From Candidatus Enterococcus courvalinii (GTDB lineage Bacteria > Bacillota > Bacilli > Lactobacillales > Enterococcaceae), in the NCBI RefSeq assembly GCF_017315945.1, contig NZ_JAFLWI010000006.1, positions 124,001 to 188,000 on the forward strand: DNA of 64,000 bases, given 5' to 3'. Below the pieces are notes generated by a model. It ran no database searches. It was not told the DNA's origin and worked only from the letters and a program-made list of their open reading frames with translations. Positions 8,527-60,559 of the stretch are shown one piece after another; the stretch's first letter is position 1; each line of letters starts with the position of its first letter. The position numbers were made by a program, and so were the translations under genes.

Positions 8527-8790
8527 GGTTGTGAAATTTAGGCTTATTTTGAAGGAGTTACTTCTTAAACACCGTGAATAAGGTTGTGGCACCAAGCGTT
8601 TAGCTTCGAAAAAATAATGAGTAACTAACAAAAATAGCGTTTCATATTTTTGGACAGTTATAAATTATTACGAGAAGTTGCTTGGGGAACACCGTGAATA
8701 AGGTTGTGGCACCAAGCGTTTAGCTTCGAAAAAAATAATGGGTGACTGATAAAAATAGCTTCTCATATTTTGAAGAGTGCCTATACTTTT
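8522..8790 (+). repeat. BOX-like intergenic repeat, locus 1 (three copies in tandem)
   Basis: Three head-to-tail copies of an element with the start AATAAGGTTGTGGCACCAAG and the end GCTTGGGGAACACCGTGAA. The middle copy (8581-8700) is complete, and the next copy begins exactly 120 bp later; the first and last are partial. Inside is a palindrome with arms ACAAAAATA and TATTTTTGG around GCGTTTCA, and the outer arms CCAAGCG...AGCTTC and GAAG...TTGCTTGG can pair, giving one long hairpin. Related elements lie at 29.6, 34.2, 41.5 and 56.9 kb. No ORF is present here. Confidence 0.85.
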
Positions 8791-9032: not shown

Positions 9033-9764
9033 ATGGAGAGCTCAGGAAAAGGAAAATCTTTATACTATCAACTTGTTGATGTATTAAAAGATCGAATCGA
9101 AACGCAGATGACAGCACATGATCAACTGCCATCTGAACGAGAATTATGTCAACATTACGGCGTCAGTCGTACGACTGTTCGTTTAGCTTTACAAGAGTTA
9201 GAAACATTAGGCTATATTTATCGTCGCCATGGTAAAGGAACATTTGTATCCGACTTATCTGTGAAGTCATCCAACTTAGCAGGCGCATATAGCTTTACAG
9301 AAGCAATGAAAGAATTAGGCAGAATACCTAAGACAGTTATTTTAGAATTTCGTCAAATGGAAGCAACAAAAAAAATCGCCCAAGCTTTGAATATAACGCT
9401 TGGTGAACCCGTGTTTAAAATCAAACGTTTACGTTTGGCAGATGCAGAACCATTGATGGTTGAACGTTCGTATTTACCAGTTAAATTATTTATGAATTTA
9501 GATTTACCGCTACTTGAGAGTAAACCCTTGTATGATGTTTTTTCACAAGATTACGATCAAATCGTCCAGTTTGCAGACGAAGAATTTTATGCAAGCATTG
9601 TACAAAAGAAAGATGCCGATTTATTACGCATCGCAGATAGTGCCCCTGTATTACATTTGATTCGGTCGACGTACAATCACAAAAATGAAATTATCGAATA
9701 TACAGACAGCGTTGCCAGAGCAGATCAGTTCCATTATAAAATTCGGCACGTGCGCAGTCATTAA
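9033..9764 (+). CDS. GntR/HutC-family transcriptional regulator of the amino-sugar operon
   Basis: The 243-aa protein has an N-terminal winged helix (about residues 8-75; QLPSERELCQHYGVSRTTVRLALQELE, YIYRRHGKGTFV) and a C-terminal UTRA effector domain (about 90-240), which in this family binds phosphorylated sugars. It lies 12 bp upstream of agaS and almost certainly controls the operon, probably sensing an amino-sugar phosphate. A palindromic operator sits at its own transcription start. The specific effector is inferred from neighbours. It resembles the AgaR2/NagR type rather than the DeoR-type AgaR of E. coli. Confidence 0.92.
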   Translation: MESSGKGKSLYYQLVDVLKDRIETQMTAHDQLPSERELCQHYGVSRTTVRLALQELETLGYIYRRHGKGTFVSDLSVKSSNLAGAYSFTEAMKELGRIPKTVILEFRQMEATKKIAQALNITLGEPVFKIKRLRLADAEPLMVERSYLPVKLFMNLDLPLLESKPLYDVFSQDYDQIVQFADEEFYASIVQKKDADLLRIADSAPVLHLIRSTYNHKNEIIEYTDSVARADQFHYKIRHVRSH

Positions 9765-29612: not shown

Positions 29613-29882
29613 TTTTCAAAGCTGAGCGTTTTTTGCCACATTCTCATTCGCAGTATTCAAGAAGTAACTCCTTCCTGATAAATCTAAATTGCTCAAAAAT
29701 TTGAGAAACGATTTCTGGTCATGTATTCTTATTGATTGGAGTTGGATACTTCTTTCGCAACCTTTTTCTCGGTGTTCCCAAAACAACTCCTCCATATAGC
29801 TTACAGCCACTTCAAAAAATGAGATGCTGTTTTGAGTGGCTGTTCACTATCTTGTCGGAGCTGAACGTTTTGCGCTGCAATC
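29613..29882 (-). repeat. BOX-like intergenic repeat, locus 2 (minus orientation)
   Basis: Read on the minus strand, two copies follow the YdcF-like gene: a first beginning GCGCAAAACGTTCAGCTCCG and ending GGAGTTGTTTTGGGAACACC, and a second, diverged copy ending AGGAGTTACTTCTTGAATAC. The first has palindromic arms CCACTCAAAACA / TTTTTTGAAGTGG. Short ORFs on the minus strand here are not convincing. Confidence 0.8.
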
Positions 29883-31081
29883 TAAGTAAACAGCGTGACC
29901 AACACAAGTAATAAATCAAATAGGAAAATCAACGAACAAGCAATTAAGTGCCGTTTCTTATTCATCATTAAAACAGCAATATATTCTCTCAGAAAAGCGT
30001 TTGGCAAATAATACAAAGCTGTTTTTGAACCGATTCCGTTTGCTTTTAATTGTGCTTCTCGCGCATACAGTCCTGCCCGAAATATATGATAGTTATTTGA
30101 ACTGAAAATTGCTTGATAAGGACCGTTCATTAGACAATCCATGATTTCCTTAGAAAAACGCATATTTTCTAAAGTAGTCGTTGAATTTGTTTCAACAAGA
30201 ATCTGGTCTTCAGGAATGCCTTTTTTTAACGCGTAATCTTTCATTGCAACAGCTTCAGGCAATATCTCATCCGTTCCTTGTCCACCAGACATCAATAGTT
30301 TTGGTGGATTAAGAGTTGCTCGTTCTTGTGCTCGATAAAAGGCGATTGCTTTATCAATTCGTTGTCCGAGTAAAGGGGATACTTTTTCGCCACCTAAAAG
30401 CCCTGCACCCAAAACGATGATGAAATCTTGGTTGAACCGTGGACGATTAAATTGGTACAAAACAGAAATCGTCAAGAAATTATAAAATACGACAAACAAG
30501 TAGAATAAAATCATTGGCACAACACTGAATAGAACATTCGCCCATTGTGGCAGATATTGAATTAAGAAAAGTTCAGTTAACAAAAAGATGGTTAAGAAAA
30601 TGCCAAGTAATAACGTCAATAAATTTGCCAGTGAATGTGATTCTTTTTTTAGTACCACGATACCATTCCAAAATAAAACAACAATCAGTATATATAATCC
30701 AAATAATAGGATTAAAAGAAGGGGAATAGCAATCAAGGCAAGTAGTCCACCAATGAAAACATTCTCTGTTTCAAACAATAGCATGACTAGGTAAATACCA
30801 AAACTGATCAGAAATAAATTAAACAGCCACCCATTTAGTAGACGCCTTTTCTCTGTGAAATAAAAAAAGGCAAAAACACTAAAGAAGAACAAGGGAATCA
30901 TAAAAAAAAGTGAATGATAGGAAATTTCTAAAACGATCAGATAAGTCAGTAATACGCCAAAAGACCATGTACTACCATAGAAAAAAAGTGCGGGATCTTT
31001 TTGTTTTTTCCGCCAATAATAAATACCAACAATGCCTAAAAAATAGAGAGCCATAAAAGCTAGATCTCTGGTTAAATTCAT
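29882..31081 (-). CDS. YdcF/SanA-like DUF218 membrane protein
   Basis: The 399-aa protein has an N-terminal half of about seven hydrophobic helices and a cytosolic or extracytoplasmic DUF218 domain (about residues 215-370) with VLGAGLLGGEKVSPLLGQRI and LLMSGGQGTDEILPEAVAM, then ETNSTTTLENM. DUF218 proteins are implicated in envelope maintenance; their reaction is not settled. ATG at 31081 is preferred because AAGGAG lies upstream; longer in-frame readings add a non-conserved basic stretch. Confidence 0.85.
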   Translation of the reverse strand: MNLTRDLAFMALYFLGIVGIYYWRKKQKDPALFFYGSTWSFGVLLTYLIVLEISYHSLFFMIPLFFFSVFAFFYFTEKRRLLNGWLFNLFLISFGIYLVMLLFETENVFIGGLLALIAIPLLLILLFGLYILIVVLFWNGIVVLKKESHSLANLLTLLLGIFLTIFLLTELFLIQYLPQWANVLFSVVPMILFYLFVVFYNFLTISVLYQFNRPRFNQDFIIVLGAGLLGGEKVSPLLGQRIDKAIAFYRAQERATLNPPKLLMSGGQGTDEILPEAVAMKDYALKKGIPEDQILVETNSTTTLENMRFSKEIMDCLMNGPYQAIFSSNNYHIFRAGLYAREAQLKANGIGSKTALYYLPNAFLREYIAVLMMNKKRHLIACSLIFLFDLLLVLVTLFT

Positions 31082-31173
31082 AAGTTCAACTCCTTTTTCA
31101 TTCCTTAAGTATAACGAAATTTCTGTAAAAAAGCTTTTAATAAAACCAAAAAATGGAAAGAAAATGAGAGAAA

Positions 31174-34179: not shown

Positions 34180-34183
34180 GGAA

Positions 34184-34510
34184 AGGTGTGGCGCAAAACG
34201 TTCAGCTCCGACAAGATAGTGAGCAACCATTCAAAATAGCTTTTCATATTTTGAAGTGGGTGAAAGCTATTTAGAGGAGTTGTTTTGAGAACACCGAGGA
34301 AAAGAGTGTGGCGCAAAACGTTCAGCTTCAAATAATAAGGAAGTCTTTCTAAAAACACCACTCATGTTTTTATGAAAATGAACTTATTGCTGAAGAAGCT
34401 GCTTGGAAACACCGTGAATAAAGGTTGTGCCGCAAAACAGCTCTATCAAAACAACAATCAAGCATTCAAAATAAGTTTTCTTTACTTTGGAGTGGTTGTA
34501 AAGGAAGCTC
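34184..34510 (+). repeat. BOX-like intergenic repeat, locus 3 (three copies)
   Basis: Three copies follow the baeRF stop codon: GGTGTGGCGCAAAACGTTCA at 34186, GAGTGTGGCGCAAAACGTTC at 34306, and GGTTGTGCCGCAAAACAG at about 34422. The spacing of the first two is about 120 bp. Internal palindromes are CCATTCAAAATA / TATTTTGAAGTGG and CATTCAAAATAAG / CTTTGGAGTG-like. They end with GAACACCGAGGAAA, GAAACACCGTGAATAAA or diverge. The two minus-strand ORFs of about 60-70 aa seen here are by-products of the repeat. Confidence 0.85.
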
Positions 34511-40150: not shown

Positions 40151-41449
40151 GTGGAACAAATTCAAATTATTGATTCGAAAAACCATGTAGGAGAAACAGT
40201 GACAATTGGTGCATGGGTTGCTAACAAGCGCTCAAGCGGAAAAATTGCTTTTCTTCAACTAAGAGATGGAACAGCCTTTTTCCAAGGCGTAGTTGTCAAG
40301 AGTGAGGTACCAGAAGAAGTTTTCCAAACTGCTAAGAACTTACACCAAGAAACAGCTATTACTGTTACTGGTGAAATTCGTGAAGATAGCCGTTCAAAAT
40401 TTGGGTATGAAATTGGGATCACTAACATTGAAGTGGTTGGTGAAAGCCATGATTATCCGATTACACCAAAAGAACATGGTACAGACTTTTTGATGGATCA
40501 CCGTCATTTATGGTTGCGTTCATCACGTCAGCATGCAATCATGCAAATCAGAAATGAAATCATTCGTGCCACATACGAATTTTTCAATGCGAATCAATTT
40601 GTTAAAATTGATCCACCGATTTTGACTGGTTCAGCACCAGAAGGTACAACAGACTTATTTGAAACAAACTATTTTGATCAAAAAGCGTATCTTTCTCAAA
40701 GTGGTCAATTATACATGGAAGCTGCTGCAATGGCATTTGGAAAAGTCTTTTCATTTGGGCCAACATTCCGTGCAGAAAAATCAAAAACACGTCGTCACTT
40801 AATCGAGTTTTGGATGATTGAGCCAGAAATGGCCTTTACCCATCAAGAAGAAAGCTTAGAAGTTCAAGAAAAATATGTAGCTTTCTTAGTACAAAGTGTC
40901 TTAGATAACTGTGACTATGCGTTAGATGTACTTGAACGTGATAAAGAAGTCTTGAAATCTTATACAAAATTACCTTTTCCACGTATCACGTATGATGATG
41001 CAATTGAATTATTGAAGAAAAATGGATTTGATGATATTGAGTGGGGTGAAGACTTCGGTTCACCACACGAAACATTTATTGCTAATTCATTTGAACAACC
41101 TGTTTTCATTTTGAATTATCCAAAAGCAATCAAACCTTTCTATATGAAACCACATCCTACCCGTGAAGATGTTGTGATTTGTGCAGACATGATTGCGCCA
41201 GAAGGTTACGGTGAAATCATTGGTGGTAGCGAACGTGCCACTGATTACGAATTTTTACTAGAACAAATTCGTGAGCATGGCTTAGATGAAAACGAATATT
41301 CTTGGTACCTTGACTTGCGTAAGTATGGTTCTGTACCTCATTCAGGTTTTGGTTTAGGTTTGGAACGTACGGTTACTTGGATTTCAGGAATTGATCATGT
41401 GCGTGAGGCCATTCCATTCCCTCGTTTGTTGAACCGTATTTATCCATAA
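40151..41449 (+). CDS. asnS: Asparagine-tRNA ligase
   Basis: The 432-aa class IIb synthetase attaches asparagine to tRNA-Asn. An N-terminal OB-fold anticodon domain (about 1-110) is followed by the catalytic domain with motif 2 [21 protein letters not shown] and motif 3 [13 protein letters not shown] at 40151 is chosen because AAAGGAG lies 8 nt upstream and the length then agrees with the family; an ATG at 40106 inside aspB would add a basic extension. Repeats follow the stop codon. Confidence 0.96.
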
Positions 41450-41700
41450 AGGTTGTGGTTCCAAGCGATTAGCTTCAAGCAATAAGGATGCTTTTCTAAA
41501 AATAGTTTTCCATTTTTTATGAAAAGAGGACTTATTGCCGAAGAAGCTGCTTGGGGAACACCGTGTATGAGGTTGTGAACGAAGTGCCTAGCGCCAATAA
41601 ATAAGAATAAATTACCAGAAATCGTGTTTCAAATTTTTGAGTAATTTAGGTTTATTTGGAAGGAATTGTTTTGGGAACACCTTCAATAAGGCCACAACTT
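41447..41700 (+). repeat. BOX-like intergenic repeat, locus 4 (two copies)
   Basis: The asnS stop codon TAA runs into AGGTTGTGGTTCCAAGCG (41450 on) and the first copy ends GCTGCTTGGGGAACACCGTG at about 41567. A second copy, diverged, follows (GAGGTTGTGAACGAAGTGC) and ends TTGTTTTGGGAACACC. Palindromic arms are CTTTTCTAAAAATAG / CATTTTTTATGAAAAG in the first and AAATCGTGTTTCAAATTTTT in the second. Confidence 0.85.
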
Positions 41701-49912: not shown

Positions 49913-52276
49913 ATGAAAGAAACAGAAAAACAGAATGAATTGTCGAAACACGACCATGAAAAAATGATGCGCGATCAGATGTCTCACGATGAGCCTCATT
50001 CAACCAGTCAGGTGCCTCATGAAAAGCATAAACAAGAGCATCAGTATGACATGAGTGACATGGAACACTCGAAGCATGAAGGAATGAATCATGAACATGA
50101 TATGAGTGGTATGGATCACTCGAAGCACGAAGGAATGAATCATGAACATGATATAAGTGGTATGGATCACTCGAAGCACGAAGGAATGAATCATGAACAT
50201 GATATAAGTGGTATGGATCACTCGAAGCACGAAGGAATGAATCATGAACATGACATGAGTGACATGGAACACTCGATGCATGGGCACATGCACGACCACG
50301 AGATGGGTGGTATGGATCACTCCATGCATATGGGTAATTTTAAGCAAAAATTTTGGTTATCTCTTGTATTAGCTATTCCCATCATTCTTTTGTCACCAAT
50401 GATGGGTTTGGAATTGCCTTTTCAAATCAGTTTCCCAGGTTCTGAGTGGGTCGTACTTGTTTTAGCTACGATTCTCTTTATTTATGGAGGCCAACCATTT
50501 TTAAGTGGGGCTAAAATGGAATTGGAACAAAAGAGTCCGGCAATGATGACCTTGATTGCAATGGGGATTTCCGTTGCGTATATTTATAGTTTGTACTCTT
50601 TTGTCGCGAACTTAGTTAACCCACATGCACATGTGATGGACTTTTTCTGGGAATTAGCTACTTTGATTGTCATTATGCTATTGGGTCATTGGATCGAGAT
50701 GAATGCTGTCTCAAATGCAAGTAATGCGTTACAAAAGCTAGCAGAGTTATTGCCTGAATCAGTGAAGCGAATCAAAGAAGATGGGGCGGAAGAAACCGTT
50801 TCTTTGAAAGAAGTTCATGAAGGTGACCATCTTGTCGTGCGCTCAGGCGATAAGATGCCCACAGATGGCATCATTATCAAAGGGAATACGATCGTGGATG
50901 AATCAGCTGTTACAGGTGAATCAAAAGGAGTCAAAAAGCAAGTCGATGACCGCGTCATAGGTGGATCGGTCAATGGTGAAGGCACGATTGAAATCAAAGT
51001 TACTGGTACTGGTGAAAGTGGTTACCTTGCGAAAGTTATGGAAATGGTTCGTAAAGCACAAAGTGAAAAATCAAAATTAGAATCGTTGTCAGACAAAGTT
51101 GCTAAGTGGTTGTTTTATGTGGCGTTGGTTGCAGGGATCTTGGCATTTATTGTTTGGCTAGTTGTTGCCGATTTACCGACAGCATTAGAGCGTATGGTGA
51201 CAGTCTTTATTATTGCGTGTCCCCACGCACTAGGTTTGGCAATTCCTTTAGTGGTAGCTCGCTCAACATCAATTGCTGCAAAAAATGGCTTGCTCTTGAA
51301 AAATCGAAATGCCTTAGAACAAGCTGCTGATTTGGACGTTATCATGTTGGATAAAACCGGTACATTGACACAAGGAAAATTTACGGTCACAGGCGTTGAA
51401 ATGCTAACCGATTCTGTAACGAAGCAGGAAGCACTTGAAATGATTGGTGCTCTAGAGGCAAATGCGAATCACCCATTAGCCATTGGGATCATGAACTATC
51501 TGCAAGAGCAAAAGATTACGCCTGCTAAAGCTGAAAACCTGAAAAATTTAGCAGGTGTTGGTTTAGCTGGCACGGTGAAAAATCAAGAAGTCAAAATCGT
51601 GAATGAAAAAGAAATCAAGCGACTTAACTTGGTTGTCAAACCTGAATTACTCCACCGTTATCAAGAACAAGGAAACACGATTAGTTTCTTGCTTTTAGCA
51701 GATCAGTTGGTTGCAATGATTGCGTTAGGTGATGTCGTGAAACCAGAAGCAAAACAATTTATCCAAACACTGAAAGAACGTAAGATTACCCCTGTCATGT
51801 TGACTGGTGATAACGAAAGTGCTGCGCAAGCAGTCGCTCATTATTTAGGAATGGATGATTTTTATGCCGGTCTATTGCCTGATGACAAAGAAAAAATCGT
51901 GCAAGACTATTTGCAACAAGGTAAAAAAGTCATTATGGTTGGAGACGGGATCAATGATGCACCAAGTTTAGCTCGTGCAACGATTGGAATGGCCATTGGT
52001 GCTGGGACAGATGTTGCAATTGATTCAGCAGATGTTGTTTTAACCAATAGCAATCCCAACGATATTTTGCATTTCTTGGATTTAGCAAAACAAACAAGAA
52101 GAAAAATGATCCAAAACCTTTGGTGGGGAGCAGGTTACAATATTATCGCTATTCCGTTGGCAGCTGGTATTTTAGCACCAGTTGGTATTTTATTAAGTCC
52201 CGCTGTTGGTGCTGTCTTGATGTCACTTAGCACAGTTGTAGTTGCTTTGAATGCGTTGACGTTGAAAATCAAATAA
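49913..52276 (+). CDS. copB: Copper/silver P1B-3 ATPase CopB
   Basis: The 787-aa pump has a His- and Met-rich N-terminus instead of an MxCxxC domain, including four 17-residue repeats (about 47-114), then the transmembrane CPH motif (ACPHALG), TGES, DKTGT, NHPL and [11 protein letters not shown] and the His-rich tail define the CopB branch. It is longer than typical CopB of about 745 aa because of the repeats. It starts 22 bp after copA and ends the operon. Confidence 0.95.
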   Translation: MKETEKQNELSKHDHEKMMRDQMSHDEPHSTSQVPHEKHKQEHQYDMSDMEHSKHEGMNHEHDMSGMDHSKHEGMNHEHDISGMDHSKHEGMNHEHDISGMDHSKHEGMNHEHDMSDMEHSMHGHMHDHEMGGMDHSMHMGNFKQKFWLSLVLAIPIILLSPMMGLELPFQISFPGSEWVVLVLATILFIYGGQPFLSGAKMELEQKSPAMMTLIAMGISVAYIYSLYSFVANLVNPHAHVMDFFWELATLIVIMLLGHWIEMNAVSNASNALQKLAELLPESVKRIKEDGAEETVSLKEVHEGDHLVVRSGDKMPTDGIIIKGNTIVDESAVTGESKGVKKQVDDRVIGGSVNGEGTIEIKVTGTGESGYLAKVMEMVRKAQSEKSKLESLSDKVAKWLFYVALVAGILAFIVWLVVADLPTALERMVTVFIIACPHALGLAIPLVVARSTSIAAKNGLLLKNRNALEQAADLDVIMLDKTGTLTQGKFTVTGVEMLTDSVTKQEALEMIGALEANANHPLAIGIMNYLQEQKITPAKAENLKNLAGVGLAGTVKNQEVKIVNEKEIKRLNLVVKPELLHRYQEQGNTISFLLLADQLVAMIALGDVVKPEAKQFIQTLKERKITPVMLTGDNESAAQAVAHYLGMDDFYAGLLPDDKEKIVQDYLQQGKKVIMVGDGINDAPSLARATIGMAIGAGTDVAIDSADVVLTNSNPNDILHFLDLAKQTRRKMIQNLWWGAGYNIIAIPLAAGILAPVGILLSPAVGAVLMSLSTVVVALNALTLKIK
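50051..50254 (+). repeat. 51-bp coding tandem repeat in copB
   Basis: Four consecutive 51-bp units encode variants of GMDHSKHEGMNHEHD plus two residues. Units 2, 3 and 4 are almost identical at the DNA level, unit 1 differs slightly. Each unit adds five His and two or three Met, so copy number changes the metal-binding load of the N-terminus. Confidence 0.93.
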
Positions 52277-52675: not shown

Positions 52676-54407
52676 TTGGTAGAAAACTTACCGACAAAAA
52701 GCTTAGAGCTACGAAAAATTGGACATCAATTGAGCCAACTGATTATGCCAAACTTAAGTATTTTTATTGCTTGGGGCTTTCTTTCTTTCTTTTATAACGC
52801 CTTATTTTTCTGGAGAATTAGCCCATAGGCTGAATGAAGTGAGCGAATGGATGCTTCATCTGTTATTACCGATTTTGATTGGCTATTTGGGCGGGAAAAC
52901 TACTGGAAATCAGCGGGGAGCAATTGTTGGCGCAATTGCTACTTTAGGAATTATTGTTGGTTCAGCAGCACCACAAATTGTTGGTGCCATGATTATGGGG
53001 ACGTTGGCAGGAAAAATGTATGACTTATTTGAAAATAAAGTCAAAAAACAATTTACGATCGGATACGAGATGTTGATTAATAATTTACTTGTAGGAATCG
53101 TTGGTGGTGTATGTTGTTTGTTGGGAATGATTGTATTTACACCCCTTATTGCTTCGGTCAGCCAGATGATCTCACAAGCTATTCTGTGGTTGACGGAAAT
53201 GAAAATGCTTACGTTAGCCCATGTCTTGTTGGAACCACTCAAGGTCTTGTTTTTCAACAACATTATCAATCATGGTATTTTAACACCACTTGGTATTGAA
53301 TTTGCTCAACAGAAAAACTCATCGATTTTATTTTTGATGGAGGCGAATCCGGGTCCTGGAATTGGGGTATTGCTTGCAATCCTCCTTCAAGGAAGAAGAG
53401 AGACAAAAACGAATGCCGGAAGTGCGCTAATGATCCAAGCTATTGGCGGTATCCATGAAATTTATTTTCCTTTTGTATTAATTAAACCAAAGCTTTTATT
53501 GGCAGTCATTTTGGGCGGTGCTAGCGGAACTTTTCTGTTTCAGTTATTGCACGTAGGTTTAAGTGCGCCAGTGTCACCAGGCTCACTAATCGTTATTTTG
53601 ACAAATACGCCAACGAATCAGCTTTTAGCTGTCAGTTTTGGCATTTTAGTGAGTATCGTAGTGACGTTTAGTTGTACATTTTTTTTATTAAGAAAAGAAT
53701 CTTTGAATGTTGGAGAAGAAAAGCCAAATGATGAGGAATGTGAGGAAATGCAACCAGTAAAAAATAAAAAAATTATCTTTGCTTGTGATTCGGGGATGGG
53801 CTCAAGTGCGATGGGTGCAGCGTTATTGAAGAAGCAACTACAAGTCGCAAACTTACCTGCAAATGTTGACTATACTTCGATCTATCAAGTGAAAAATCAA
53901 CCAGATCAACTAATCATTGTCCAAAGAGAACTAATGGCACTTGCTCAACAGCAAGCACCAAGTAGTCAAATTCTCCCTTTGGCTCATTTTTTGGAAGTAG
54001 AGAATGCTTTACCAGAGATTAAAAGCTTTCTTTTAACAACTTCTCGCGTGGCGAAACCAGCAGCAATTGCCACAGGAATAGACAGAAACAAGACTGAAAA
54101 GGTCGTGTTTTTATACGCTGAAAATATCAGAGGCTCACAAACGATGGGGATGACGATTTTAACACAATTAGCGAAACAACAAGGATGCTCGCTTTCCATC
54201 AGTAAGCTACCGATCGAACAGTTAGTAAGTGAAAAAGAAACAGTTTATGTTGTTACAACTACTCTCCTTCACAAAAATCCTCAGTTAGCTGAACTATCAA
54301 AAGTCGTTTTAGTTGAAGATTTTGTTTTAACAACAACCTATGAACAATGGATGAAGGGAGGAGTCGAACATGTACTTGTCCACAAGGGAGAAGCAATTGA
54401 TCAGTGA
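52676..54407 (+). CDS. PTS mannitol-type EIICB, first copy, frameshifted at a CTTT repeat
   Basis: The protein would be a membrane mannitol-type EIIC followed by a EIIB domain and a degenerate second EIIB-like domain. TTG at 52676 behind GAGGGGGG opens a frame with LIMPNLSIFIAWG that matches the second copy, but at the tract of four CTTT units (52777-52792) the frame is lost and stops at a TAG near 52826. The remainder, GELAHRLNE onward, lies in another frame (open from 52767). Removing one CTTT unit joins the halves with no gap relative to the second mtlA. EIIB has [15 protein letters not shown] with its active Cys. Either phase-variable, disrupted, or a sequencing error. Confidence 0.8.
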
Positions 54408-56406
54408 GTTGTTACACAGTTCCACACCAGTGTCTGTGGAGCGAATGATGACAGTTTTGAAAGTTAGCAAGCGAACGGTCTATCGTGAGTTGGATCAGTT
54501 AGCTTTATCACTGAAAGCAGTTGATGCTCAATTGATGAAAGTAACGCGTGGTTCGTTTTTGATTGAAGCAACCGCTGAAACCAAGTCGAACCTATTAGCG
54601 GAAATCAATGATGAAGGTGGAGAAGAACTTTCGACATTGGAACGTCAACATGCGATTTTATTAGAAATTTTATTGACGGCACAGCCGTTAAGTTTAGCGC
54701 ATTTTTTGGAAACCTATTTAGTCAGTAACACAACGTTTTACGCAGATATCAAGCAGCTTGAAGTAAGTATTGAGCATCTGCCATTAGAAATTGTTCGCAA
54801 TCAAGGATATGAAATTATTGGTCCAGAAAAATACCGACGTTTACTGGCAGCAAACGTGTTGGAATTGGAAATCAATGAGTATGAATTGTTTCATCTTGTG
54901 GAAGAACAAAAAAGTCCAAATTATTTTTTTCGATTTATCCAGTTAGAAAACTTTTTTCTGGTGAGAAAGATGATAAGTGAAGAGTTGATTGGTAAAAAAA
55001 ATGAGTTGAGTGATCGTAAATTAGCGCATTTGATTTTGATTTTAACATTGACGATGGATCGGGTGAGAAAAAATCAGTTTTTGACGAATGAAACCTATTT
55101 GGGTTTAGCAAACAAAGAATTTTTACAAATTGCTAAGCGACTTTTTGCGATTATCGGAAAAGAAAGCCAACAACTGTATCCAGTGAATGAAATCGTCTTT
55201 TTTGCCAGTTTGTTAAATGATTTTTCCAATTCATTTGATAAAGATTTCTTTGATGAACATTTTGATACACAGCTTGCTTATCTAGTAAAGCAGCTGATCA
55301 CATTAGTTAGCGAAGAAACCGATGTGCGTTTTTATGAAGATGAAAGTCTTTATAAAATGCTACTGACACACTTGTCTGGGGTATTTTCTCGAGCGATTTT
55401 ACAAGAAGAAACATTGACTAATCCGATTCTTGAAAAAATCATGATTCAATACGAGGAACTGACTACAGCCATTCGGTCAGCAGTTAGCCAAGTTTTTCAA
55501 GAGAAGCAGTTGTCCAATGAAGAAATTGCCTATATGGTTTTACATTTTGCCAGTTCACTTGAGCGTAGTCCAAAAGAAAGTTCAATTCGCATCGCTGCGT
55601 TTTCTCCGAGTGGCTTGGCCTCAACTAGTATGCTAGAAATGCGCTTGAAACGATATTTTCCTTCGATTAGTCAGCTAGAATTTTATCGGATTGCAGATAT
55701 CAAAAAAGTGGATCTTCAAAAAGCGTATGATGTGGTTATTTCGACTTCCGTTTTACCAGGATATACAGGAAATTATTTGCTGGTGTCACCCTTATTGTTA
55801 GAAGATGAGATCAAACGTTTGAAACAAGCCTTCCAAAAAGTGAGAAGCGCTCATCCGTTACCAGCAAAACAAACAGTTACACCTGAACCAATTTTAGCGG
55901 ATCAATATGAGAAAACCTTAGTGGTGATGGAAAAAATCAATCAGTTACTTTCTCGCTTTTTTATTCAAGAAATCAGTAATGAAAACAAACTAAGTGAGAT
56001 TTTAACCCAAGTCCTTTCCTATTTGCCGACAGATTTACTCAGAGATGAAAAGGATGTTCAAGAAAAATTAATACGACGTTATCAACAATCACCCATTGGG
56101 ATTCCAAAAACGAATATGGGATTGTTTCACACATCTAGTTCAGCAGTGGTCGCACCAGTCTTTTGTATTTTTCAGTTGAATCAACCGATCACGATTGAAG
56201 GAATGGATAAGCAACCAATCGTACTTGAACGAATGATGCTGATGCTTGCTCCTTCACCCATTGAAGAAACCGATAGCCGTTTACTAGGAAAAATCAGTGC
56301 AGCGATGATCATGAATGATTTGAACTTAGAAATTTTTCAGTCAGGTAATCAAGCAATCGTCTATCAATTGTTGGCAAAAATTTTGATTGATGAGATGAAA
56401 AAATAA
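54370..56406 (+). CDS. mtlR: Mannitol operon regulator MtlR (BglG/PRD family)
   Basis: The 678-aa activator has an N-terminal DNA-binding part (VSVERMMTVLKVSKRTVYRELDQL, then a second HTH near 110), two PRD domains (about 180-400), an EIIB-like domain (about 410-500) and an EIIA-like domain (about 530-678; LFHTSSSAV). PTS components phosphorylate these domains to tune activity. In the EIIB-like segment, AAFSPSGLASTSM, the usual active-site Cys appears to be Ser. It overlaps the end of the preceding EIICB gene by 38 bp. Confidence 0.9.
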   Translation: MYLSTREKQLISELLHSSTPVSVERMMTVLKVSKRTVYRELDQLALSLKAVDAQLMKVTRGSFLIEATAETKSNLLAEINDEGGEELSTLERQHAILLEILLTAQPLSLAHFLETYLVSNTTFYADIKQLEVSIEHLPLEIVRNQGYEIIGPEKYRRLLAANVLELEINEYELFHLVEEQKSPNYFFRFIQLENFFLVRKMISEELIGKKNELSDRKLAHLILILTLTMDRVRKNQFLTNETYLGLANKEFLQIAKRLFAIIGKESQQLYPVNEIVFFASLLNDFSNSFDKDFFDEHFDTQLAYLVKQLITLVSEETDVRFYEDESLYKMLLTHLSGVFSRAILQEETLTNPILEKIMIQYEELTTAIRSAVSQVFQEKQLSNEEIAYMVLHFASSLERSPKESSIRIAAFSPSGLASTSMLEMRLKRYFPSISQLEFYRIADIKKVDLQKAYDVVISTSVLPGYTGNYLLVSPLLLEDEIKRLKQAFQKVRSAHPLPAKQTVTPEPILADQYEKTLVVMEKINQLLSRFFIQEISNENKLSEILTQVLSYLPTDLLRDEKDVQEKLIRRYQQSPIGIPKTNMGLFHTSSSAVVAPVFCIFQLNQPITIEGMDKQPIVLERMMLMLAPSPIEETDSRLLGKISAAMIMNDLNLEIFQSGNQAIVYQLLAKILIDEMKK

Positions 56407-56439: not shown

Positions 56440-56880
56440 ATGAAACTAGCCACAGAAAGGATTCGCTTGAATCAAAGTTTCAGCAATTGGCAGGATGCAT
56501 TGATAAACATTGGGTCATGGTTAACAAATCAAGGCTGGGTAAAAGAAGGATACACTGAGTCAATGATCAAACGTCAAGAATTGATGAGTGTTTATATTGG
56601 TAATTTTGTTGCTTTGCCCCATGGTGACGAAGAGCTAGTAGTTAAAGAAGGCATCTCACTTATCCAAGTGCCAGATGGTGTTAACTTTGGAACAGAAGAA
56701 GAACCAAAAATTGCCACCATTTTATTTGCGGTTACTTTCAAAAAGGAACAACAGTTACCAATGTTACAAGAGCTCGCATTTTTTTGTGCGGAAATTGAAC
56801 AAGTGATTGCGTTGAGTGATGCGAAAACTGTGTCAGAAGTGCAAGCAATTTTGGAAAAAAATATCACTGAGCTTGATTGA
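56440..56880 (+). CDS. mtlF: PTS mannitol EIIA, first copy
   Basis: The 146-aa protein accepts phosphate from HPr. The active-site His lies in NFVALPHGDEELV (about residue 65), and [13 protein letters not shown] is the family core. It begins after AAGGAGGAGGG. It follows mtlR, an order usual for mtlA-mtlR-mtlF-mtlD operons; here the mtlD gene lies beyond a second mtlA-mtlF pair. Confidence 0.93.
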   Translation: MKLATERIRLNQSFSNWQDALINIGSWLTNQGWVKEGYTESMIKRQELMSVYIGNFVALPHGDEELVVKEGISLIQVPDGVNFGTEEEPKIATILFAVTFKKEQQLPMLQELAFFCAEIEQVIALSDAKTVSEVQAILEKNITELD

Positions 56881-57088: not shown

Positions 57089-57148
57089 TTTGGCACAAAC
57101 CTTTGTGCCAAAGTACGACTATTTCTCTAATTAGTAAGCGGATACAAT
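57089..57148 (+). promoter_or_regulatory. MtlR-type operator, cre site and -10 of the second mtl unit
   Basis: TTTGGCACAA (57089-57098) and TTGTGCCAAA (57103-57112) form an inverted repeat resembling the MtlR boxes of Bacillus and Geobacillus, TTGNCACA and TGTGNCAA. TAGTAAGCGGATACA (57132-57146) matches the cre consensus with one mismatch and overlaps TACAAT (57143-57148). This fits activation by MtlR and repression by CcpA. Confidence 0.75.
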
Positions 57149-57179: not shown

Positions 57180-58943
57180 ATGGAGCAGACGATGAATACA
57201 AAAGAAAAAATCTCACTGAAAGCACGTGTTCAAAAATTAGGAAGTACCTTGTCTAGTATGGTGATGCCCAACATAGGAGCACTAATAGCGTGGGGTGTCT
57301 TAACAGCTTTGTTTATTCCGGATGGCTACTTACCGAATGAACAATTTGCGACAATGGTTGGGCCAATGCTGACTTACTTAATTCCGCTACTGATTGGTTA
57401 CACTGGGGGGAAAGTGATCGCAGGTGATCGAGGTTCGGTTGTCGGAGCAATCGCAACGATGGGGGTCATTGTGGGAACGGATATCCCAATGATGCTTGGC
57501 GCAATGATTATGGGCCCTTTGGGTGGTTACGCAATTAAAAAATTTGATCAGGTATTTCAATCACGAATCAAATCAGGATTTGAAATGTTAGTGAATAACT
57601 TTTCAGCAGGATTGATTGGTTTTGGTTTAGCCCTCATTGGTTTTACCGGAATTGGGCCAGTTGTAGATGGTTTGACACAAGCGATGGCTCAAGGTGTAGA
57701 AGTTATTTTAAATGCGCATTTGATTCCACTCACAAATATTTTTATCGAACCAGCGAAAATCTTATTTTTGAATAATGCAATCAATCATGGCATTTTAACA
57801 CCACTTGGAACAGAGCAAGTCGCAACAGCAGGCAAATCGATTTTATTCTTATTAGAAGCTAACCCTGGCCCTGGCTTGGGTGTGTTATTAGCTTTTACTT
57901 TCTTTGGCAAAGGCGCAGCAAAATCTTCTGCACCAGGTGCAATCATTATCCACTTCTTAGGTGGAATTCATGAAATTTATTTTCCATATGTCATGATGAA
58001 ACCGCTTTTGTTTTTATCGGTAATCGCAGGTGGAATTTCAGGAAGCTTCATTTTCCAATTATTAGATGCAGGCCTACGCGCACCAGCTTCGCCCGGATCA
58101 ATCATTGCTATTTTGGCAATGGCACCACTTAGTTCTTATCTACCAGTATTATTAGGCATTGCAGTCGCAACAATTGTTTCTTTTGCGGTTTCTGTAGTGA
58201 TTTTAAAGGCGGATGTTCGAGAAGAATCAGAAAGTTTTGAGCAATCTGTTCAAGAAATGAAACAAGCAAAACAGACTGCTAAAGGGTTGACTGTTCGTCC
58301 AGACGCATTTTCATCGACTAAAAAAATTATTTTTGCCTGTGATGCAGGTATGGGCTCAAGTGCGATGGGTGCTTCAATTTTAAGAAAAATGGTTCAGAAA
58401 GCTGGTCTACCACAAACCGTGACAAATCAAGCAATCAGTCAGTTAGTGGATGAAGAAGGAACGTTGATCATCACTCAGGTGGAGTTACAAGAAAGAGCCA
58501 AACAAAAAGCACCACATGCACAGTTTGTTGCAGTTGAAAATTTCTTGAATTCACCAAGATACGACGAGGTAATCCAACAATTAAGCCAAAAAGAAACAAC
58601 TGAATCCTTAGAACCAAAGGACGAGCTACAGCTTGAAGTCACACCGCAAGATATGAGTAAAATCCAAAAAATCGTGATCGTCCATGATCAACGAGCAGGG
58701 TCTGCAACAATGGGCATCAATGTCTTAAAAGAAGTGCTTCAAAAAAATGATATTCAAATTCCATTACAAAAAATTAAGATTGATGAACTAGCTGATGATG
58801 AACATTCATTGGTGCTTGCTAAAGAACATTTGACAAAAGAAATTCAAGAACTTGCACCAAATGCGCTTCATTTACCAGTTGAAAGCATGGTTCAGATCAA
58901 ACATTACGAGACCATTGCGCAACAACTTAAAAAATCTGCTTAA
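57180..58943 (+). CDS. mtlA: PTS mannitol-specific EIICB, second copy
   Basis: The 587-aa transporter phosphorylates and imports mannitol as mannitol-1-phosphate. EIIC (about 1-340) has [12 protein letters not shown] and [11 protein letters not shown] motifs; EIIB (about 375-470) has [16 protein letters not shown] with the phosphorylated Cys. A second EIIB-like domain (about 495-587) has [14 protein letters not shown], where Asp replaces Cys. The gene is intact and most likely the functional mannitol permease. ATG lies after AAAGGAG. Confidence 0.94.
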
Positions 58944-58957
58944 AGAAGGAGAAAACA

Positions 58958-59395
58958 ATGAAAGCACTAGATTTCAGTATGATCGAATTAAACCAAACCT
59001 TTGCTTCTAAAGAAGAAGCGATTCGTTACTGTGGAGAAAAATTAGTTGAGGCGGGATGCGTGGATAAAGCATATATCGATTCGATGATTCAACGTGATGA
59101 GATGTTATCCGTCTATATGGGAAACTTTATTGCTATTCCTCACGGGACAGATTCAGCCAAAAAATATGTTAAGAAATCTGGTATCTGTGTCGTTCAAGTA
59201 CCTGACGGAGTCAATTTTGGAACAGAGGATGAGGAGAAAATTGCAACTGTGTTATTTGGTATCGCAGGTGTCGGAGAAGAGCACTTAGCATTAGTTCAAC
59301 AAATAGCCTTGTACTGTAGCGATGTAGACAACGTTGTTCAGTTAGCAGATGCATTAAGTAAAGAAGAAGTTTGCGAAAATTTAGCAATTGCATAA
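58958..59395 (+). CDS. mtlF: PTS mannitol EIIA, second copy
   Basis: The 145-aa EIIA carries the active His in [14 protein letters not shown] (about residue 64) and [16 protein letters not shown]. It is about half identical by eye to the copy at 56440. It follows mtlA by 14 bp and precedes mtlD by 12 bp. Confidence 0.95.
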
Positions 59396-59407: not shown

Positions 59408-60559
59408 ATGAAAGCAGTACATTTTGGAGCAGGAAATATCGGGCGTGGATTTATCGGTGAAGTATTAGCAGAAAATGATTTTGACATAACTTTTGTGGAT
59501 GTCAATCGAGAAATCATTGACGCACTGAATGAAAGAAACGGATATGTAATCGAACTTGCAGATGAGACAAAGAAACAAATTGAAATCCAACAGGTTTCTG
59601 GAATCAATAATCAAGAAAATCCTCAAGCTGTGATTGCTGCGATTGGCGAAGCAGACTTAGTGACGACTGCGATTGGACCAAATGTTTTGCCCTTTATCGC
59701 AGAATTGATTGCTAAAGGGATTGAGCAACGAGAAAAAGTACAGAATACAACAGCATTAGATATCATTGCTTGCGAAAATATGATTGGTGGTTCAGCATTT
59801 TTAGAAACAGAAGTCCGTAAACATTTATCACAAGTTGATTTTTTAGAGAAGTATATTGGTTTTCCAAATGCAGCAGTTGACCGCATCGTTCCGTTACAAA
59901 AACATGAGGATCCTTTGTTTGTTCAAGTCGAACCTTTTAAAGAATGGGTAATTGCAGATCATGAACGAAAAAACACAGCAATCGAATTAGAAGGCGTCCT
60001 TTATGTAGAAGATTTGGAACCTTATATTGAACGCAAACTATTTAGCGTGAACACTGGACATGCAACGGCTGCGTACACTGGCGCTTTACTAGGTTATCAA
60101 ACAATAGATGAGGCAATGCAAGATGCGTTGGTTGTCGCACAATTAAAATCTGTATTACATGAAACAGGAAATCTATTGATCGCGAAGTGGGGCTTTGATG
60201 AAAAACAACATGAACAATATATTGAAAAAATTATTCAACGTTTCCAAAACAAATATATTTCCGATGCAATCAGCCGCGTTGCACGGACACCTCTACGAAA
60301 ATTGGGGAATCAAGAACGCTTTACTCGACCAATCTTAGAATTAAAAGAAAGAGATCTTGTTTCACCACATTTAACTGCGACGATGGGTATCATTTTTAAC
60401 TATTATGATCCAAATGATGAACAAAGTTGTGAACTTTTTGAAATGAAACGAACAAAAAATATTGAAGAACTGATCCAAACAGTGACAGGAATCAATGATG
60501 CAAAAATGATTGGGGCAATCAAACAAAACGTGGAACGCTACGACAAACAAGTTGCTTAA
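59408..60559 (+). CDS. mtlD: Mannitol-1-phosphate 5-dehydrogenase
   Basis: The 383-aa enzyme oxidises mannitol-1-phosphate to fructose-6-phosphate with NAD. The N-terminal Rossmann motif is VHFGAGNIGRGFIGEVL, and a further signature is KLFSVNTGHATAAYTGA (about 212-230) with the catalytic Lys/His region. Length is normal for the long-chain polyol dehydrogenase family. It is the last gene of the operon. Confidence 0.96.
   Translation: MKAVHFGAGNIGRGFIGEVLAENDFDITFVDVNREIIDALNERNGYVIELADETKKQIEIQQVSGINNQENPQAVIAAIGEADLVTTAIGPNVLPFIAELIAKGIEQREKVQNTTALDIIACENMIGGSAFLETEVRKHLSQVDFLEKYIGFPNAAVDRIVPLQKHEDPLFVQVEPFKEWVIADHERKNTAIELEGVLYVEDLEPYIERKLFSVNTGHATAAYTGALLGYQTIDEAMQDALVVAQLKSVLHETGNLLIAKWGFDEKQHEQYIEKIIQRFQNKYISDAISRVARTPLRKLGNQERFTRPILELKERDLVSPHLTATMGIIFNYYDPNDEQSCELFEMKRTKNIEELIQTVTGINDAKMIGAIKQNVERYDKQVA

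Follow-up and report, generated by a model that had tools for sequence, protein, structure and literature searches.

EIICB1, the first of two mannitol-type PTS EIICB genes in the window (the whole 64-kb stretch analysed, contig 26, 124001–188000, of a 2.6-Mb genome in 29 contigs), is broken at a (CTTT)4 tract, most probably (with a probability of roughly three in four) by a recent and ordinary slippage frameshift in a dispensable, divergent paralogue and not by an evolved switch. The gene differs by one tandem unit from that of its sister lineage, meets a stop after 50 residues and carries no accumulated decay. In this reading a short tract, which the sister lineage translates as ordinary Phe-Leu-Ser-Phe codons, would have gained one CTTT unit by strand slippage, and the added unit would have broken the frame shortly before the genome was sampled. 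The cell would then make no working EIICB1, mannitol would be taken up via the intact canonical EIICB2 and its neighbors, and the allele would be a loss of recent date, either segregating still or already fixed in the strain, from which occasional reversion may occur.

The gene order in this part of the window is copA, copB, EIICB1 (broken), MtlR-like regulator, EIIA, EIICB2, EIIA, and MtlD-like gene. Domain searches were run on EIICB1, the regulator, the first EIIA, and EIICB2, and the remaining gene names derive from sequence and position. The features, with their positions in the window, are as follows:

52676–52828, + strand: EIICB1 first frame; from the TTG start across the N-terminus and the first membrane segment (to IAWGFLSF), 12 out-of-frame residues, then TAG; 50 aa

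52777–52792, + strand: (CTTT)4 tract; the unit count is three in Enterococcus sp. DIV0660C and two in E. thailandicus, and eight other genus orthologues have no tract

52797–54407, + strand: rest of EIICB1, 536 aa open in another frame; conserved EIIC, then EIIB including its Cys, then a C-terminal stretch

54370–56406, + strand: MtlR-like regulator; HTH, Mga HTH, two PRD stretches, EIIA-2 domain

56440–56880, + strand: EIIA, first copy; PTS_EIIA_2

57090–57111, no strand assigned: palindrome TTGGCACA-N6-TGTGCCAA, which we take to resemble the MtlR box; before EIICB2, at the same place in both relatives (three species)

57180–58943, + strand: EIICB2, canonical mannitol EIICB (mtlA), intact; TIGR00851 527.3 bits, cut-off 468.4

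58958–59395, + strand: EIIA, second copy (mtlF by position); ~45% identity to the relatives' first-copy EIIAs

59408–60559, + strand: mannitol-1-phosphate dehydrogenase-like gene, presumably mtlD; named from position and sequence

The preliminary description of this locus had EIICB1 starting with TTG and losing its frame at four CTTT units, and the reading frames bear this out. The TTG at 52676 is preceded by AGGGGGG, the first frame reads GGC TTT CTT TCT TTC TTT TAT AAC across the tract (CTTT x4, 52777–52792), and it ends at TAG 52826–52828; the mechanically called ORF that follows (52767–54407, 546 aa) lies in a frame different from that of the TTG. The claim that the spacing from the tract to the next conserved block equals that of the second copy also holds when examined on the unbroken EIICB1 of DIV0660C in place of a mended window copy, which aligns with the window EIICB2 free of gaps from IAWG to GY(L/T)GGK. 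Conservation of the remainder of the gene was likewise found as described, including the EIIB Cys, which is located in a 14-residue motif recognized by eye. The locus therefore has a frame disrupted relative to its orthologues, as a pseudogene does, and a coding-region repeat in which a change of unit number shifts the frame, as a phase-variable gene does.

Among the fetched loci the closest relatives are those of DIV0660C, with 93–95% DNA identity over long aligned segments, followed by E. thailandicus, with 89–91%. Both carry EIICB1 among the same neighbor genes, with 95% and 89% protein identity, respectively (best segment), and with a TTG at the same start position, but with three and two CTTT units in place of four and with the frame open. 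At the tract DIV0660C reads GGC TTT CTT TCT TTT ATA and E. thailandicus GGA TTT CTT TCT TTT CTA, and their stop-to-stop frames, which count codons before the TTG, run to 584 and 581 codons. Eight further genus EIICB1 orthologues use other codons here, have no tract, and are open, so that outside the window genome 10/10 orthologues are open through the tract position, none has four units, and one has at least three (duplicate copies of one genome, recognized as matching alignment rows, were counted once). Flags of one internal TAA on five of the genus orthologues at first looked like further breaks; their stop-to-stop frames are 569–594 codons, and the TAA was taken as the normal stop. The tract is also absent from four remoter sequences, three from Trichococcus and one from Sedimentibacter, chosen from 80 loci. 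Since the relatives have shorter tracts and (CTTT)4 is seen only here, the simplest history would be that one unit was added in the lineage of the window.

In searches that cover one genome per species, CTTTCTTTCTTTCTTT occurs once in the window's own genome and in 0/14 other genus genomes, and (CTTT)4 occurs in one of the 105 family genomes searched, at the EIICB1 locus only, and is absent from the other 104. The tract with its upstream context gave no match in a viral contig collection, and in a plasmid collection it gave three records, in none of which a single place covered 80% of the query. No other period-4 tract of 15 nt or more occurs in the window. Three CTTT units, counted on both strands with overlaps, are found 1–11 times per genus genome, versus 0–7 times for a reversed-pattern control. 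Markov models of orders 1, 3, and 5, trained on 264 kb of the same genome, lead to an expectation of ~0.33, 0.98, and 0.65 per 2.6 Mb for period-4 tracts of 16 nt or longer, estimates that rest on 1, 3, and 2 tracts per 8 Mb simulated. One such tract somewhere in the genome is unremarkable, and because the simulation expects ~0.3–1 per genome, tract length alone carries little information. What stands out is the position inside a gene, the absence from 104 family genomes, and the one-unit difference from the nearest relative.

The part of EIICB1 downstream of the tract remains under constraint. Over 535 aligned codons, the window branch has 21 synonymous and 11 nonsynonymous substitutions and the DIV0660C branch 29 and 17 (Fisher p = 1), and a simple model estimates the neutral fraction of the window branch as 0, with a 95% upper bound of 0.18–0.36 for neutral ratios of 3.4 to 2.0. 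Neither relaxed constraint nor further lesions were found, the frame after the tract being open to its end, and EIICB1 would thus be at most a very young pseudogene, in agreement with the earlier proposal that decay is recent or absent; the dating as recent draws on three species, few substitutions, and one genome of the window species. Undiminished constraint fits a young break, a reversible break, or an error alike, and does not discriminate between the three. On both branches EIICB1 evolves somewhat faster than five neighbor genes pooled (window branch p = 0.053, sister branch p = 0.036), so this rate belongs to the gene and does not point to the break.

EIICB1 resembles the mannitol EIICB/EIICBA MtlA (TIGR00851, NF011663) in having EIIC and EIIB domains (PF02378 and PF02302, both over cut-off) with the EIIB Cys, and in adjoining an MtlR-like regulator and an EIIA. 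It differs in scoring under the curated TIGR00851 cut-off of 468.4 bits (289.5 for the window ORF, 312.2 for DIV0660C), whereas EIICB2 scores above it, so that EIICB1 is a divergent paralogue. An EIICB1-type match is missing from 4/15 genus genomes, in one of which the sole long match (42%) carries EIICB2-type residues, and an EIICB2-type match is present in all 11 that have EIICB1; the two types were separated by identity (EIICB1 type 48–51% in remote genomes and 89–94% in the two near relatives, EIICB2 type 40–42%). The best reading of this distribution is that EIICB1 is probably dispensable.

The adjoining regulator is named from its domain architecture, with no NCBIfam model over its cut-off. 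Its gene overlaps the end of EIICB1 by 38 nt, with purine-rich AAGGGAGGAG preceding its ATG, and because this strong-looking ribosome-binding site of its own lies inside the EIICB1 end, the break need not silence it. In Bacillus subtilis, MtlR is the activator of the mtl operon, and its activity depends on the phosphorylation state of the PRD, EIIA-like, and EIIB-like domains that it contains (PMC3217849). That EIICB1 plays a regulatory part would be a guess.

A sequencing or assembly error, in which case the true genome would have an unbroken EIICB1, is possible and in our judgment unlikely. The difference of exactly one tandem unit, the open EIICB1 of the relatives, and the undiminished constraint would all be expected of an error; to our knowledge, however, duplication of a four-base unit is not a typical base-calling error. 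Nor is the tract part of a pattern: in comparison with both relatives it is the sole uncompensated frame-changing indel away from an ORF end among 22 ORFs (30,073 ORF bases), which were hand-picked from 53, leaving out overlapping antisense ORFs and those left of 29882. Versus DIV0660C, 9 of the 37 listed indels fall inside these ORFs, namely five multiples of three, two mutually compensating (49954, 49973), the tract, and one at 31170, 37 nt inside a mechanically chosen start. Versus E. thailandicus the corresponding number is 14 of 65, namely nine multiples of three, two mutually compensating (62940, 62949), the tract, and two (31245 and 40132) within 56 nt of an ORF end.

The preliminary description favored a phase-variable gene, in which CTTT slippage would turn EIICB1 on and off in the population, perhaps altering MtlR-controlled sugar use. 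Its location of the frame loss stands, with relatives open at fewer units; the switch itself we regard as improbable. The tract lies early in the gene, a change of unit number shifts the frame, the downstream part remains constrained, and the sister DIV0660C has one unit fewer. The four units are at or above the threshold applied in one survey of Haemophilus influenzae, where tetranucleotide tracts are counted from 3 (text, Table 2) or 4 units (Table 3) and the longest expected by chance in strain Rd is 3 units (PMC2651432), but below the cut-off of five for tetranucleotides in a Neisseria phasome survey (PMC5953494). The likeness to the H. influenzae phase-variable genes lies in a tetranucleotide tract within the reading frame in which a unit change shifts the frame; in contrast to the four units of EIICB1 in one genome, one locus there is reported as having 8–16 units across four genomes (PMC2651432).

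Several observations argue against the switch. Besides being short, the tract is not conserved among relatives, with three units in the one sister, two in E. thailandicus, and none in 8/10 genus orthologues. The genome does not appear rich in such repeats: 264 kb of its own DNA, a non-random sample made up of the window and ten stretches, of which L144, L147, L148, and L149 were picked at or near places with three CTTT units, contained a single further period-4 tract of 14 nt or more. In addition, mutS and mutL are intact. Positive evidence for a switch is limited to the repeat itself and the undiminished constraint, which other readings explain too. A more elaborate version, in which a low-frequency reversible CTTT switch would control production of a regulatory EIICB paralogue in each cell and thereby, via MtlR, whether the neighboring mannitol genes are poised, is quite improbable. 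If true, it would mean phase-variable PTS control in an enterococcus, and were other strains or reads to differ in unit number, the locus would exemplify a tetranucleotide tract that switches a sugar PTS in a Gram-positive bacterium; among the literature matches listed, judged on titles and the starts of abstracts, none describes such switching of an enterococcal sugar PTS. A recent mutation, listed as an alternative in the preliminary description, fits best, and the slippage frameshift as it stands would be a further example of short tandem repeats as weak spots for frameshift loss, caught before decay.

A mutator background was considered as well and rejected, as both mutS and mutL have open frames and score over their cut-offs. 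The further period-4 tract in the 264-kb sample is an AAAG repeat at L144 9887–9900 (contig 26, 93887–93900), in DNA that looks coding by eye.

Programmed +1 ribosomal frameshifting, which would join the two frames of EIICB1, is very hard to credit: the two frames do share the stretch from the tract to the TAG, and the codons that follow are conserved, but 10/10 genus orthologues read in one frame and none shares the arrangement, the following 88 nt are no more stably folded than shuffled versions (z = −0.62, 48/200 shuffles at least as stable), and no known shift motif was recognized by eye. Equally far-fetched is use of the 546-codon ORF alone, from an internal start (TTG 52767 or later), to give a shortened EIICB; this ORF is mechanically complete, scores against the EIIC and EIIB models, and has weak purine-rich stretches (by eye) before the in-frame ATGs at 52851 and 53016, but TTG 52767 lies inside the first membrane segment without a ribosome-binding site (by eye), later starts lose that segment altogether, and the relatives' frames continue from the upstream TTG.

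Two other kinds of repeat were observed in the window. An interspersed repeat with ~120-nt units, common to the window's own genome and the relatives, occurs at 8544–8774, 29653–29883, 34181–34479, and 41449–41681 of the window, all four places between ORFs of at least 120 aa, and at 9140–9493 of another fetched stretch (L003); one such array lies between the first EIIA and EIICB2 in E. thailandicus and not in the window. The CopB-like copper ATPase upstream of EIICB1 has a 51-nt tandem repeat of 4.6 copies (50046–50280) in its His/Met-rich N-terminus. The CopB-like frame has 787 codons in the window; counted stop to stop, it has 718 in DIV0660C and 778 in E. thailandicus, so that the copy number of this repeat appears to vary between species.
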